Shown: positions 15,406 through 21,491, counted from the first letter of the stretch. The stretch is DNA of 46,020 nt from Terriglobia bacterium (GCA_036496425.1 DASXLG010000240.1:1-46020); one strand, 5' to 3'. The notes: generated by a model from the letters alone, not told the origin. Numbers and translations are program-made.

Positions 15406-15717
15406 TTACTCCTGACGAAGCGCCTGCATGGGATCGACGCGCGAAGCTCGCCAGGCGGGGATCGCGGCGGCTCCGAAAGCAGTCACGAGCAGGACGAGCG
15501 TGACTGCGGCGGAGGATTCGAGGTTGGGCGCGAAGAAGCTGAACCCGCCGTCTCCTCCCGAGCCGGCGGCGCGAGTTCCGGCGATGCTCAGGATGAGGCC
15601 GAAGATCAGCCCGAGCGCAAACATCGGCGCCGCGTGCTTCAGCACGGACTTCACGACGTGTGCACGTTCGGCGCCGAGGGCCATGCGGATTCCGATCTCG
15701 CGCGTTTTCCGGCTGAC
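15406..15717 (-). pseudogene. C-terminal remnant of an FtsX-like (ADOP) ABC permease
   Basis: The minus-strand reading from 15717 to the stop at 15406 gives about 104 residues identical in layout to the end of acidobacterial orphan permeases: RKTREIGIRMALGAERAHVV, two transmembrane helices, and the closing IPAWRASRVDPMQALRQE. The intact relative at 39204-41882 ends the same way. Everything upstream (about 700-800 residues with the MacB-like periplasmic domain and the first permease domain) is missing. The frame runs on into unrelated sequence to about 15801, so this is a truncated remnant rather than a small gene. Confidence 0.85.
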
Positions 15718-15833
15718 CTGATCACAGGAAGAGCCGTTGGGCAGAAATGCGCAAAGGAAAGACAAAAAAGCATTGAAGGCCCAGGGGAAAGTCGTCATCA
15801 CTGTAGATCACTGAATTGTGTGATGATATCGGC

Positions 15834-16912: not shown

Positions 16913-17314
16913 TCACTCGTGCAGGAATGCTTCTGCGAGACGATCGATATACTTGCCGACCGGCGTATAGGAAACGACCACCGACAAGGCAAAGGCGCCG
17001 AGGCCGGTCAGGGCGGCCTCCGCATAGTCCCCGGAATAGTGGGACCCATGGATTATCGCATCTGCGGCGAAGGCACAGATGCCAAGGAACGCGGATGACG
17101 TCCAACGATTGGCGAGGTGCCGCGCGTGACGCGTCAGCGTGACGCCGAGAACCGGGGATACGGCAAGCAGGCCGGTCTTGGACGCAATCAACAGATGGCC
17201 CAAGGCGATGTCTCCAAGATGGCCTTGCACCATCAGAATCAGACACACCGCTCCCGCTTCAACAGCTTTGTGACTGCAGAGCAGTAATCGAAATTGGTGC
17301 TTCTCAGGTAACAA
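16913..17314 (-). CDS. His-rich polytopic membrane protein at the end of the bufferin operon
   Basis: A 133-residue frame beginning at a TTG (17314), 8 bp after the stop of the DoxX gene and on the same strand. It predicts three or four transmembrane segments (about residues 18-30, 38-60, 72-90 and 98-117). Histidines cluster at membrane borders: HLGDIALGH at 32-40, RHARH at 62-66 and HGSH at 89-92. I do not recognise a family. The GGGGG before the DoxX stop could act as its ribosome-binding site, but the start is weak and uncertain; the longer frame to 17434 overlaps DoxX and is not credible. Its position makes a metal-handling or DoxX-partner role plausible, as an inference only. Confidence 0.55.
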   Translation of the reverse strand: MLPEKHQFRLLLCSHKAVEAGAVCLILMVQGHLGDIALGHLLIASKTGLLAVSPVLGVTLTRHARHLANRWTSSAFLGICAFAADAIIHGSHYSGDYAEAALTGLGAFALSVVVSYTPVGKYIDRLAEAFLHE

Positions 17315-17322
17315 CCGGGTGA

Positions 17323-17793
17323 TTACCCCCGCTTCGCCAGATATCGCTCGATGAGATGATCGAGCGACAACGCGCCCGGACCACGCGTCAGCAGGAAGAT
17401 CAGAATGGATCCCCATAGCACGTGATCGGTCCACGCCTGAGGGTACACGAATATCTGGATGACGGTGATCATACCCAGCAATGGCAACGTCGCAAAGCGA
17501 GTGGCCAGGCCCAGGAACAGAAGTGTGGAAAAAGTCAGTTCATTGAACATGGCCAGACGGGCGGCAACGGCCGGCGCGAGCACGGGCACTTTGTATTCTT
17601 CTTCGAACAGTTTCACGGCAAATTCAAACGAGTTGTACTTCAGCAGACCTGCCGTGAAGAACACGGCTCCGACGCCGATCCGCATCAACAACTGGATGAT
17701 CGACAGCGGAAAACGGCCCAGTAGTTCGCGCGCCGATACGAATAATTGCCGCAGAGGCGGCCCGTGTGTAATGGTATGTTCGGAAGCGCTCAT
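17323..17793 (-). CDS. DoxX family membrane protein of the bufferin operon (BufD-like)
   Basis: A 156-residue integral membrane protein of the DoxX family with four predicted helices: PLSIIQLLMRIGVGAVFFTAGLLK as the first, then segments around 75-95, 100-115 and 125-145. The KYNSFEFAVKLFEEEYKVPV loop between helices 1 and 2 is typical of DoxX proteins associated with DUF692/DUF2063 loci. In bufferin operons the DoxX member is thought to serve redox or export functions at the inner membrane. The ATG at 17793 follows GGAGAAATGTT and overlaps the TGA of the upstream DUF2063 gene by four bases (ATGA), so translation is coupled. Confidence 0.88.
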   Translation of the reverse strand: MSASEHTITHGPPLRQLFVSARELLGRFPLSIIQLLMRIGVGAVFFTAGLLKYNSFEFAVKLFEEEYKVPVLAPAVAARLAMFNELTFSTLLFLGLATRFATLPLLGMITVIQIFVYPQAWTDHVLWGSILIFLLTRGPGALSLDHLIERYLAKRG

Positions 17794-18575
17794 AACATTT
17801 CTCCTTTGCCGCTCTCCTGGATAGCGATGACCAGACCGGCGCCAATCAGCATCGCCAAAGCACGGCCCGCATCGAAGGCAGAGTCCGCATCGAGAGCGCA
17901 CTCGGCGGCCTCACCGACGGAACGGCCTTCCGAAATAGATTTGCGAAAAATAAATTCGGCAGCATCGAGCCGGTGAATGTTGAATTCACCACGAGACCCG
18001 CGGATTTCAAGCCAGACTTCCGCAGGTTCAAATGACAATCGCTCCGGCGCGCTCTCCGATAAATACAGCTTGAGCAGTTCATCGATCGGCCATGATGCCT
18101 TGAGATAGCGGACTCCCGCCTGCAACAACAGCGGCGTCTCGAAAATCTTCGCGGCATGAAGTGACATCAGTTCGTCCCAGAGAACTGCCGCCTCATCCGC
18201 CGCAACCGTGACATGACCTGCATGCCATTCCAACTCCGCGAACTCGCCAACATAAGGCGCACGACCGGCGGCGGGAGTTGCCGACAGGTATCGGGGAAAC
18301 GCTTCACCATATTCTGCGATACACGGCGCGAAGGGCGGATGCTCGAGAACAAACCGTTTCGCGGCTTCGGTAACGAACGGCGATCCAATCAGCCACACGG
18401 TTGCCGGAAACTTGGCCAATAGGGCCATCACCAGGCTGGTTTCGTAGTTTCTTCGGTGAATCTCGAGCCTTCTCTGGGGATACTTTCCGCCGGTAAGCAG
18501 CTTACCGGCAGCCGCAGTTTCACCCCCGACAACCGCGCCGCGAAGGAGTTCCTGGATATCAGCCAGCGTTGGCAC
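17790..18575 (-). CDS. bufC: DUF2063 partner protein of the MNIO enzyme (BufC/HvfC-like)
   Basis: A 261-residue protein of the DUF2063 (HvfC) type. The N-terminal helical DUF2063 domain (about residues 1-95) carries the conserved RLEIHRRNYETSLVMALLAKFPATVWLIG and FVLEHPPFAPCIAEYGEAFP segments; the C-terminal half (about 100-255) is the wing-like second domain. Such proteins bind the RiPP precursor and present it to the DUF692 oxidase. Its ATG lies inside the end of the DUF692 gene (17-bp overlap), and its stop overlaps the DoxX start, giving a tightly packed operon. Assignment rests on this conserved order plus the domain pattern. Confidence 0.88.
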   Translation of the reverse strand: MPTLADIQELLRGAVVGGETAAAGKLLTGGKYPQRRLEIHRRNYETSLVMALLAKFPATVWLIGSPFVTEAAKRFVLEHPPFAPCIAEYGEAFPRYLSATPAAGRAPYVGEFAELEWHAGHVTVAADEAAVLWDELMSLHAAKIFETPLLLQAGVRYLKASWPIDELLKLYLSESAPERLSFEPAEVWLEIRGSRGEFNIHRLDAAEFIFRKSISEGRSVGEAAECALDADSAFDAGRALAMLIGAGLVIAIQESGKGEML

Positions 18576-19434
18576 GGAATGCCTCCCCGGTCAGAGTTTC
18601 CGCGGTAATCGCATCGGCGCGCAGAGCTTCGCCAAGCAAGTTTGAGAGCGGTGGCAGATCATTATCCCATTCGATCAAAGCGGGCCTGGATCCGAAACGG
18701 CGAAGAGCATAGGCATAAAGATCCCATGTGGGTCCCGCAATGGAAGCCGCATGAGTGTCGATCAATATCTCTCCGCCGTCATTGGCCTCGTCCTTTTCCG
18801 GCGTAAAGCCGCCCAGGTGCAGTTGAGAGATGGCTTCCGCCGGCAGGCTATCGATGTACTTCTTCGCGTCATAACCCATGTTATGCGCGCTCAGATAGGT
18901 ATTACTGATATCCAGCAGCAACCGGCATCCGGTGCTTCCGGCGAGCTCCGAAAGAAATTCGGCCTCGTTCATCGTCGATGAGCGGAAGCCGACATAGCTC
19001 GCCGGGTTCTCGACGAGATACGGCCGTCCCAGGACATCCTGAACTTCCTGAACGTGAGATTGGACCACCTGCAGCGCCTCCTTATTAAAAGGAAGAGGCA
19101 ACAAATCGTTCAGGTACTCATTGCCGAACGTGGACCAGGCCAGATGGCCGGAGACGAAAATGGGATCGACCTGCTCCACCAGTTCGCGCATGCGCTTCAG
19201 GTGCGGGCGATCGATCCCATTTGCGCTTCCAACAGAGACTCCGACGGTGTGAATGGAAACGGGGTAATGATGAGATATCTCCATCAGCAGTTCTTTCGCG
19301 TGAGGATTGGCGAGGAAATTCTCGGGATGAATCTCGAACCATCCCACGCTGGGGCGAGTGGCCACCACTTCCGCAATATGGGGAAGTCTCAACCCAATGC
19401 CTGCCCGCTCCGGTATCCGGCGATTCGGTTTCAT
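18559..19434 (-). CDS. bufB: DUF692 multinuclear non-haem iron oxidase (MNIO), bufferin-modifying
   Basis: A 291-residue TIM-barrel enzyme of the DUF692/MNIO family. Likely metal ligands sit at the conserved places: His62 (SIHTVG), His97 (SGHLAW), Glu142-Asn143 (VENPAS), Asp175/Asn178 (LLDISN), His206 (LHLGG), Asp226/His228 (DTHAA) and Glu255 (IEWD). Members use a di- or tri-iron centre and O2 to convert cysteines of a precursor peptide into oxazolone/thioamide or thiooxazole groups. The substrate here is almost certainly the DUF2282 peptide encoded 27 bp upstream. The N-terminus (MKPNRRIPERAGIGLRLPH) is typical, so the ATG at 19434 is accepted. Confidence 0.92.
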   Translation of the reverse strand: MKPNRRIPERAGIGLRLPHIAEVVATRPSVGWFEIHPENFLANPHAKELLMEISHHYPVSIHTVGVSVGSANGIDRPHLKRMRELVEQVDPIFVSGHLAWSTFGNEYLNDLLPLPFNKEALQVVQSHVQEVQDVLGRPYLVENPASYVGFRSSTMNEAEFLSELAGSTGCRLLLDISNTYLSAHNMGYDAKKYIDSLPAEAISQLHLGGFTPEKDEANDGGEILIDTHAASIAGPTWDLYAYALRRFGSRPALIEWDNDLPPLSNLLGEALRADAITAETLTGEAFRANAG

Positions 19435-19461
19435 GCGATGACCACTCTTACAGCGATAACG

Positions 19462-19728
19462 CTATTTCGGCATCTTGCTGCCGCCGACGATACGCTCGCA
19501 GTAACCTGCCGGAACGTAGATCCATGCTTTCGGATCTCCGTTTATCTTGGATGTGCCGCCACAGGAATTCGCTCCAGTGGACGCGCAATCGTTCTTTCCG
19601 GCCTTTGAAATTCCGTAACACTTTTCCGCTTTGAAAGTTGGTGCGGGAGCCGGCTTCTGGGCTGAAAGAATGGCGGGACCCGCGACTGCCGCAGCCAGGG
19701 CCGCAGCGACAACGAAACGTTTGTTCAT
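19462..19728 (-). CDS. bufA1: Bufferin-type RiPP precursor (DUF2282, BufA1-like)
   Basis: An 88-residue precursor. Residues 1-23 form a Sec signal peptide ending ILSAQ. The mature part has the DUF2282 core with four cysteines at 37, 48, 56 and 77: [27 protein letters not shown] and [15 protein letters not shown]. These are the exact landmarks of class 1 bufferins, periplasmic copper-sequestering RiPPs whose cysteines are modified by the DUF692/DUF2063 pair before export. GGAGGAC (19733-19739) lies 4 nt before the ATG. The gene heads the bufA-B-C-D order and has its own predicted ECF promoter. Copper binding is known for the family; it is inferred here. Confidence 0.93.
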
Positions 19729-19749
19729 GAAAGTCCTCCGAATGGTGTA

Positions 19750-19765
19750 GCCCGGCACGCCGGGC
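19750..19765 (-). other. GC-only hairpin in the bufA leader
   Basis: The predicted leader contains GCCCGG-CGTG-CCGGGC, a perfect six-pair GC stem with a four-base loop, about 10 nt upstream of the Shine-Dalgarno sequence. An overlapping CCGGGCCCGG palindrome could form an alternative fold. It may stabilise the highly expressed precursor mRNA or tune access to the ribosome-binding site. No known riboswitch pattern is apparent. Confidence 0.55.
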
Positions 19766-19785
19766 CCGGTGTTCTCGTCGAGAAG

Positions 19786-19815
19786 TATATGCCCGCTGGG
19801 TTTTCGGATATTCCC
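19786..19815 (-). promoter_or_regulatory. Predicted ECF-sigma promoter of the bufferin operon
   Basis: On the minus strand, GGGAATAT (19815-19808) is followed after 12 nt by CGGGCATATA (19795-19786), about 58 nt upstream of the bufA start. The same elements, GTTTC-Y-GGGAATAT-N12-CGGGCWTWTA, occur with identical spacing upstream of the sigma gene (21413-21442). The surrounding sequence is otherwise unlike, so the shared blocks are likely -35 and -10 elements read by that sigma factor. Transcription should start near 19779. Confidence 0.7.
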
Positions 19816-19864
19816 GGAAACCCGTCTCAAGTACCTTTTTTTGCGGATTTTCTTCGGGAAGCGT

Positions 19865-20767
19865 TTACAGCCTCTGCAGGAACTGAGAAACGGAAGGGGC
19901 AAGGTCTGCTGCGACTTTGAGATTCCCGTCACGGTCAAGGTTGGATACGACAAACGCCAGGAAACGATTTGTCTCAAAGCCGGCGATCTCCAACTGATCC
20001 TGATTGTCCCTGTACACCCGGACACCGGACGCTTCCATCGTGGCCGCCACCTGGGCGCGCGTGAAGGCTTCCCCCTTCTTCTCCGTGATGACGAGCGAAA
20101 GAATTGCGCCATTCCCGCCGGTTGCAATCAGGTGCACATAGTCGCGCCCATTGAACGTGCAGCGATGCCCCTGAATGAGCTGGAAATGGGGTCCCAACTT
20201 TTGTTTCACCACAGGAACCAGATCGATGAACTCCGGGCCCAGCGCGGTCTCTCCGGTCGCCTGCTTCATATGGTCGAAGGAGAGCAACTGCTTCCATCTC
20301 CCAAGTTCCAGAGTGCAGTGAACATGATCCGCCAGCCCGATCCGCAGAATTTCCCTGGCCTGGGTGGAGATAGTCTGGAATACGCCTTGACCGCCACCGG
20401 CCTCCCGGGTTCTCAAACCAATCATGCGCACGGCAAGCACTCCACCTACGGCCAGGACCAGCAGAGCCGCCACCGCAAGACCCCACTGCCGGGGCTCCGG
20501 CGCGAAAAAACCGCCGCGTTTTCCTTCGCGAATTGTCTTCTGAACGCCTGCGAGCAGACCGGCGGGCGGCTCCTCCAGCATTACGGCCTGCCTGACCGCC
20601 TTCTTCAAGCGGCCGCGTTCTTCAAGGAGGCGCGTGCAATCTGCACAAACGGCAAGGTGGCGCAGCACCTCATGGTTCGTCTCCACGAGCAACTCGTTGT
20701 CTAAATACGAATCGAAGTACCTCCGAACCTTTTCGCAGGCTTTGTCATTGAAATGAATTACGTTCAT
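19865..20767 (-). CDS. Membrane anti-sigma factor with zinc-finger (zf-HC2) domain
   Basis: A 300-residue predicted anti-sigma factor. The N-terminal cytoplasmic zf-HC2 domain has C11 and H37-x3-C41-x2-C44 (HLAVCADC), the ligands of ZAS-type anti-sigma domains. One transmembrane helix spans about 95-113. The remaining roughly 185 residues are extracytoplasmic and contain metal-ligand-like motifs: DHVHC (147-151), DHM (165-167) and GHRC (200-203). Its ATG overlaps the sigma gene's stop by four bases (ATGA), as expected for a cotranslated sigma/anti-sigma pair. It lies directly upstream of the bufferin precursor gene. Sensing of periplasmic copper or redox stress by the outer domain is an inference from the motifs and context. 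Confidence 0.85.
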
Positions 20768-21321
20768 GACTCTTGCACCTCATTGTGCGGGCCGGTGAGG
20801 CGCAACTCTCTTGCGTAACCGGCCAACGACAGCCGAAGCTGTTTTCTGCCGCGGCTCAGGCGGGACATTACGGTTCCTACGGGGATATTCAGCGTCTCCG
20901 CGATCTCCTTGTACGCAAATTCGTGAACGTCGGCCAGCAGAACAACTTCCCTGTACTCCGGCGGCATCGCGTCCAGAGCCTGCAGGATATCTTCATCCCG
21001 CACCTCCTCAGGAATGGATGGCTCATACGCCAGTGTCTCTTCGAATGGCTGTTCGCCCTCGGGAACGACCCTGTTTCTGAACCACCGACGCCGGTAGTGA
21101 CGCACCTCATTAAAGAGAATCTTGAAGAGCCATGCCCGGCAGTTGGTTCCCGGTTCGAACCGGTGGAAAGACTTCCAGGCCTGCAAATATACGTTCTGCA
21201 CCAGGTCCTGCGCTTCGCCACGATCGCGCACGAGATGGACGGCCGTACGATACAGATCGTTCAGATGCGGAACAGCAGCTGCCTCGAACTCTCCCGCCTG
21301 GGCGTTCTTTCGGAAAAGCAC
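20764..21321 (-). CDS. ECF RNA polymerase sigma factor
   Basis: A 185-residue sigma-70 family ECF factor. Region 2 is at about residues 15-85 (DLYRTAVHLVRDRGEAQDLVQNVYLQAWKSF, then NCRAWLFKILFNEVRHYRRR). Region 4 is at about 110-170 (LDAMPPEYREVVLLADVHEF, the helix-turn-helix YKEIAETLNIPVGTVMSRLSRGRKQL). The start is a GTG at 21321, with GGGAG about 10 nt upstream. The gene overlaps the anti-sigma gene that follows. A promoter-like motif upstream is repeated in front of the bufferin operon, implying autoregulation and direct control of that operon. Confidence 0.92.
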   Translation of the reverse strand: MLFRKNAQAGEFEAAAVPHLNDLYRTAVHLVRDRGEAQDLVQNVYLQAWKSFHRFEPGTNCRAWLFKILFNEVRHYRRRWFRNRVVPEGEQPFEETLAYEPSIPEEVRDEDILQALDAMPPEYREVVLLADVHEFAYKEIAETLNIPVGTVMSRLSRGRKQLRLSLAGYARELRLTGPHNEVQES

Positions 21322-21412: not shown

Positions 21413-21442
21413 TAAAAGCCCGGCCGTAAGCCAAATATTCCC
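21413..21442 (-). promoter_or_regulatory. Predicted autoregulated ECF promoter of the sigma/anti-sigma operon
   Basis: GGGAATAT (21442-21435) and CGGGCTTTTA (21422-21413), separated by 12 nt and preceded by GTTTCT, match the element before bufA in sequence and spacing. Predicted transcription start is around 21405, leaving a leader of roughly 85 nt before the GTG. GGGAAT-like -35 elements are common for ECF sigma factors. Confidence 0.7.
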
Positions 21443-21491
21443 AGAAACGGTTTTTTGTCGGGAGGCAGGGAAACGAACGGATTTTCTTGCG

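Follow-up and report, generated by a model that had tools for sequence, protein, structure and literature searches.

The window, by which we mean the whole stretch of 46,020 nucleotides analysed from a Terriglobia bacterium (GCA_036496425.1 DASXLG010000240.1:1-46020), carries between positions 16,913 and 21,321 a bufferin locus in which the genes for a small precursor and its MNIO-type maturation are preceded by genes for an extracytoplasmic function (ECF) sigma factor and a membrane anti-sigma factor. The starts and stops of all six genes were re-read on the sequence, and all six lie on the minus strand. The first two encode a SigR/SigH-like ECF sigma factor of 185 aa (20764-21321; Sigma70_r2 50 bits against a cut-off of 24, r4_2 70.8 against 25.7) and a membrane anti-sigma factor of 300 aa with a zinc finger of the zinc-associated anti-sigma (ZAS) type (19865-20767; zf-HC2 30.7 bits against 22.2). 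They are followed by bufA1 for the bufferin precursor (19462-19728, 88 aa; DUF2282 78.2 bits against a curated cut-off of 22.4), bufB for the MNIO (DUF692) maturase (18559-19434, 291 aa; Pfam MbnB_TglH_ChrH 308.5 against 25, NCBIfam MNIO_BufB 330.4 against 310), bufC for the DUF2063 partner protein (PME type 1; 17790-18575, 261 aa; 53.8 against 27.2) and doxX (17323-17793, 156 aa, start re-read; 47.6 against 23.6). A sequence-only reading of the window had proposed this order of a four-cysteine DUF2282 precursor, DUF692, DUF2063 and DoxX behind an ECF sigma factor and zf-HC2 anti-sigma factor of its own on the same strand, and each of these assignments is borne out above its family cut-off, including the placement of the small protein in DUF2282. 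Its description of the genes as all overlapping or tightly spaced holds within each of two groups, the sigma and anti-sigma genes overlapping by 4 bp, bufA and bufB being 27 bp apart, bufB and bufC overlapping by 17 bp and bufC and doxX by 4 bp; between the two groups, however, there are 136 bp that contain a second promoter-like site.

Type-1 bufferins (Buf1) are defined by a DUF2282 precursor with four cysteines and a core of MNIO, DUF2063 and DoxX proteins (PMC12452194). The four cysteines of the window BufA (C37, C48, C56 and C77) stay invariant when it is aligned with the precursors of Caulobacter and other loci, its N-terminus looks like a signal peptide, the length of BufC agrees with the two-domain partner described in PMC12452194, and the DUF2063 partner and DoxX stand in Buf1 gene order. 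Judged by its sequence the locus is a complete Buf1 gene cluster of a known kind. The Caulobacter Buf1 carries cysteine-derived thiooxazoles that chelate Cu(I) and Cu(II) (PMC12452194), and by analogy with the family the window bufferin is presumably modified, copper-binding and exported in the same way. The window genome has a single MNIO gene (bufB) and a single DUF2282 gene (bufA), and DUF2282 is rare in the sampled phylum (5/396 genomes, the window genome included). The sequence-only reading had stressed the self-contained locus with its sigma pair, the zf-HC2 regulator and an acidobacterial setting for genes described mainly from Proteobacteria. Buf1 genes with an adjacent ECF and anti-sigma pair are already in the literature, with sigma factors and NrsF reported within Buf1 clusters (PMC12452194) and Caulobacter having sigF-nrsF (PMC3511200). 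As MNIO clusters, too, have been published throughout the bacterial tree, a self-contained locus that brings its sigma pair is no novelty. The Neisseria rpoE operon (PMC2893595) likewise unites a ZAS anti-sigma factor, an ECF sigma factor and DoxX/MNIO-type genes. The proposed acidobacterial background is plausible only, the nearest BufB being that of an Acidobacteria metagenome-assembled genome (MAG; 67% identity). The locus is ordinary as a bufferin cluster, and its novelty lies in its regulation.

The best NCBIfam profile of the sigma factor is SigH_actino TIGR02947 (147.7 bits, below the equivalog cut-off), and its gene is the sole one of its type in the window genome at E<=1e-40. For the anti-sigma factor the best NCBIfam profile is RsrA TIGR03988 at 33.1 bits, under the equivalog cut-off of 62.5. 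Its N-terminal ZAS finger consists of an HxxxCxxC motif and an upstream cysteine (C11, H37, C41 and C44), which coincide with the positions given for RsrA in PMC2893595, and is followed by one hydrophobic helix and a presumed periplasmic domain whose H148, C151, C203 and H212 are shared by 16/16 anti-sigma homologues. A structure predicted without an alignment was unreliable (mean predicted local distance difference test score, pLDDT, 40.6), and a plasmid search with the anti-sigma factor gave no match. As nearly all of the 16 homologues come from genomes of the phylum in which no DUF2282 gene was detected, their conserved histidines and cysteines suggest that the anti-sigma factor belongs to a type of sensor for metal or disulphides that serves the phylum more widely and has been co-opted for the bufferin.

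A putative promoter element common to both appears to join the two gene groups. A match to TTTCyGGGAATAT-N12-CGGGC precedes the sigma gene (site at 21418-21447, minus strand, TTTCTGGGAATAT-N12-CGGGC) and another precedes bufA (site at 19791-19820, minus strand, TTTCCGGGAATAT-N12-CGGGC), with GGAATA at -120 and -86 from the respective start codons and with CGGGC followed by TTT or ATA. Only these two sites match the two-block element perfectly in the 6.16-Mb genome; none has one mismatch and the next best has two. Because the element was read from the two upstream regions themselves, uniqueness in the genome is not the fair test, and shuffled sequences and relatives were used instead. Shuffling both upstream regions 5000 times never gave a pair that reaches the two-block score; the ungapped similarity of the two regions over 30 bases (19/30) is not significant, 259 of 3000 shuffles being as good. 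Among 23 genomes that were not used to define the element, GGAATA is found upstream of homologous sigma/anti-sigma or anti-sigma genes in 12 (shuffles: mean 1.6, maximum 5). One of the relatives, G188, has TTTCCGGAATAA-N12-CGGGC with the same spacing as the window sites, and two others, G404 and G339, have in common GGGAATAAACC-N6-CCCGTGTC. The GGGAATA core of the window sites, which is met again before homologous sigma/anti-sigma genes not accompanied by bufferins, equals, as far as sequence goes, the published SigH/SigR-type -35 consensus of the form gGGAATa (PMC3489674), and this supports the link since the same class gives the best profiles for the window sigma and anti-sigma factors. The earlier suggestion that the pair is a dedicated regulator of the bufferin genes, which had gene order behind it, is in this way backed by a putative common promoter.

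A different regulator is usual in related clusters. Most close relatives have a gene for a sigmaF-like ECF factor followed by one for a multi-helix membrane protein, and those of the latter that were scanned match NrsF above the cut-off (the neighbour in locus L007 was counted as NrsF because its context resembles that of L006, and not by a profile scan). Whole-genome searches found NrsF in G309, G325, G373 and the genomes of loci L004, L005, L008 and L014, and detected none in the window genome (G000), in G269 or in the genomes of loci L002 and L003. The sigmaF promoter of Caulobacter is GTAACC-N16-CGAA (PMC3511200), and with at most one mismatch this sequence lies 5' of bufA in 12/12 loci of the clade with NrsF (one with N15 spacing) and in 0/4 loci without it; the window is one of these four, its bufA upstream region containing no GTAACC-N16-CGAA site. 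In sigma-linked Buf1 clusters the sigmaF/NrsF pair and GTAACC promoter are frequent but not obligatory. In three congeners (G404, G407 and G408) bufA-B-C-doxX adjoins a sigmaF-like ECF gene and NrsF with a GTAACC promoter, and no other genome examined combines the window sigma/anti-sigma pair with a buf operon. That promoter type and anti-sigma type go together across these loci, and that the congeners stand in the opposite group from the window, is the strongest single result of our sequence comparisons. What is peculiar about the locus, as read from these genomes, is that the usual sigmaF/NrsF pair and promoter are lacking and another pair is present while the congeners have kept the usual one, a point not made in the sequence-only reading.

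It could be argued that the sigma/anti-sigma pair is merely a neighbour with other targets and that an unrelated promoter serves the buf operon. A homologous pair does occur beside other genes in many genomes that lack bufferins, and an anti-sigma homologue lies on another contig in the congeners G404 (54% identity) and G407 (40%). However, the same two-block element stands before both units, with no other mismatch-free site in the genome, and both NrsF and the customary sigmaF promoter are absent; we consider this alternative unlikely.

The protein comparisons bear on how this arrangement arose. For BufA, BufC and DoxX of the window, the congener G408 has the closest proteins (82, 57 and 80% identity), and a tree of concatenated BufA-D joins the window and the congeners (SH-aLRT 97.4, UFBoot 88). 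Together with the state of the congeners, the simplest history is that regulator and promoter were exchanged around an operon that was kept. In a BufB tree that left out the congeners the window falls in a clade of 13 rows (support 100/100) that mixes records of Acidobacteria, Gemmatimonadetes and Alphaproteobacteria (Afipia, Xanthobacteraceae and Devosia), from which we infer that the bufferin operon has spread horizontally. We think it probable that such a horizontally spread operon passed, inside a single genus, from sigmaF/NrsF control to that of a SigR/RsrA-like pair, as the sequences suggest.

Several observations weigh against this proposal. GGAATA is also present as its reverse complement in 5 of these 23 upstream regions, the -10 half of the window sites differs from the GTT found at 16-19 nt in SigR/SigH promoters, and the promoter link comes from sequence with a block layout that was chosen after viewing the two upstream regions. 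The genomes are fragmented, that of the window being 95% complete, so that the missing NrsF could partly reflect incompleteness. Support for the clade of window and congeners is moderate, and the nearest BufB, that of the MAG mentioned above, lies outside the genus, with congener BufB at 62-63%; from these two points re-acquisition of the operon is possible. The whole sigma-anti-sigma-buf block might also have arrived together by horizontal transfer, with no regulator swap in the genus, as the position of BufB and its clade of mixed phyla would allow; synteny of the flanking genes with the congeners, sought as a route to an empty site, was not found, which fits this as well. Against such a transfer, a congener has the most similar BufA, BufC and DoxX, the concatenated tree groups the window with the congeners, the anti-sigma factor has its nearest homologue in the congener G404, and the combination is seen in no other genome; arrival as one block seems to us the less likely history, though a serious alternative.

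The explanation that we favour, with good though not full confidence, is that of a Buf1 cluster under a replaced regulator, in which the ECF sigma factor drives both units. In this scheme the sigma factor would transcribe sigma/anti-sigma and bufA-bufB-bufC-doxX from two copies of one promoter, and the membrane ZAS anti-sigma factor would hold it until it is set free by stress, which probably acts either on the cysteines in the cytoplasm or on the conserved His/Cys set of the periplasmic domain; both the control of bufA by this sigma factor and the nature of the release signal are our proposals from sequence. BufA1 would be synthesised with a signal peptide, BufB and its partner BufC would modify the two central cysteines (to thiooxazole in the characterised homologue), and the modified peptide would be exported to hold excess periplasmic copper, with DoxX as an accessory membrane protein of unsettled role. 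In relatives and congeners the same role would be filled by sigmaF/NrsF at the GTAACC-N16-CGAA promoter.

The locus might instead serve thiol or oxidative stress and not copper, with an RsrA-like switch that senses disulphide stress and a peptide that is an export-bound scavenger of thiols or metal. C11, H37, C41 and C44 are at the redox-active positions listed for RsrA, the -35 element is of the SigR/SigH type, and an association of a DoxX homologue with oxidative or sulphur stress has been described (PMC12452194). On the other hand RsrA, as the family is known, has no periplasmic domain with conserved histidines and cysteines, the meningococcal ZAS factor gave no response to oxidants (PMC2893595), and the Buf1 work described so far points to copper; we therefore give this alternative a minor share of the probability. 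A more speculative and in our view unlikely reading is that the anti-sigma factor is a two-compartment sensor, in which a cytoplasmic RsrA-like zinc/thiol centre is connected by the transmembrane helix to periplasmic H148, C151, C203 and H212 that bind copper or form a disulphide. If so, bufferin production would respond to metal in the periplasm by way of a hitherto undescribed class of sensor.

Comparison with known systems helps to define what differs. The Caulobacter vibrioides Buf1 locus (sigF-nrsF, CC3254-CC3257) shares the four-cysteine precursor, MNIO, DUF2063 partner and DoxX, an ECF sigma factor with a membrane anti-sigma factor, and similar promoters before the sigma gene and the operon. 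Its anti-sigma factor, however, is the NrsF protein with six transmembrane helices and not a single-helix ZAS protein, its sigma factor is sigmaF-like and not SigR/SigH-like, its promoter is GTAACC-N16-CGAA and not of GGGAATA type, and its sigma genes are divergent whereas those of the window are upstream and co-directional. The Neisseria rpoE operon (NMB2140-NMB2145; MseR; gonophorin-type) also has an ECF sigma factor and a ZAS anti-sigma factor, with ZAS residues equivalent to those of the window protein, cotranscribed with DoxX-like genes (PMC2893595) and, according to the MNIO literature, with MNIO, DUF2063 and precursor genes (PMC12452194, PMC12668002); its precursor is of the EGKCG kind and not DUF2282, and it forms one operon where the window has two promoter copies. 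Because a related MNIO cluster is under ZAS control there, the regulation proposed here is not wholly without precedent. SigR/RsrA of Streptomyces and SigH/RshA of Corynebacterium resemble the window pair in giving the best profiles, in the RsrA-position C11/H37/C41/C44 and in the GGGAATA -35 element, and are unlike it in that the window proteins score below the equivalog cut-offs, the -10 half differs and the anti-sigma factor has an additional transmembrane helix and periplasmic domain. In Cupriavidus metallidurans the metal-induced gigPABT cluster stands beside an ECF sigma factor and a predicted membrane anti-sigma factor (rpoQ-rsqA; PMC10304878), arranged divergently unlike the window; the gig operons have been called bufferin biosynthetic gene clusters (PMC12452194). 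In the open-licence literature that we searched we found no DUF2282 bufferin described as being controlled by a SigR/RsrA-like pair from the promoter of that pair, nor any description of a switch from sigmaF/NrsF within a genus.

Other regulators stand beside bufferin genes elsewhere. In G269, a further genome of the phylum (locus L081, 6000-8000), a sigma gene, a ZAS-like anti-sigma gene and Buf1 genes are all on one strand. We rejected this as the same architecture, the sigma factor being less closely related (E about 1e-36, where G339 gives 1e-71) and the anti-sigma factor having another periplasmic domain; upstream of its bufA neither the GTAACC nor the GGGAATA promoter type was seen, and on these grounds it may represent an independent regulator replacement. 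That periplasmic domain is rich in cysteine and histidine, and an open reading frame (ORF) just 5' of the sigma gene encodes a similar stretch. An Acidobacteria MAG (locus L003, 4723-5582, minus strand) has a bufferin operon beside a divergent ECF sigma gene and one for a short soluble HLxxCxxC protein, with no NrsF found in the genome, and this protein is possibly a third type of regulator. An Oceanospirillaceae bufferin locus (L027, 8047-9377, plus strand) has a co-directional ECF sigma gene downstream and then a protein with one transmembrane helix that resembles RskA-type anti-sigma factors. Outside bufferin loci the sigma/anti-sigma pair has other partners: in both G339 (L136) and G009 (L137) the anti-sigma homologue is followed by a secreted-looking protein of 392 aa and a protein of more than 700 aa. 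In G404 (L181) and G009 the anti-sigma gene has no close sigma homologue adjacent to it and yet has a GGGAATA site of its own. This points either to a sigma factor that works in trans or to a partner that has strongly diverged.

The sequence-only reading had extended the locus to position 16913. The stretch from 16913 to 17322 (minus strand), 3' of doxX, is not part of DoxX and is a further ORF with hydrophobic segments, whose membership of the operon is unproven. It has no Pfam or NCBIfam match, and searches of 198 other genomes of the phylum and of related buf loci gave no homologue, for which reason it was dropped as a conserved fifth operon gene; it may be a lineage-specific membrane gene or no gene at all. 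Further along, a short ORF at 15406-15801 (minus strand), judged by eye, resembles the C-terminal end of an FtsX/MacB-type permease of which the remainder is absent, and is probably a gene remnant.

The locus offers a natural case, readable from sequence, in which a stress operon would have changed its sigma factor, the coding genes being kept while promoter and regulator were exchanged, and in which congeners preserve the old regulatory state. It suggests that different stress signals may control bufferins, a point relevant to whether their role is in copper alone, and it makes the periplasmic domain with its conserved histidines and cysteines a candidate sensor.

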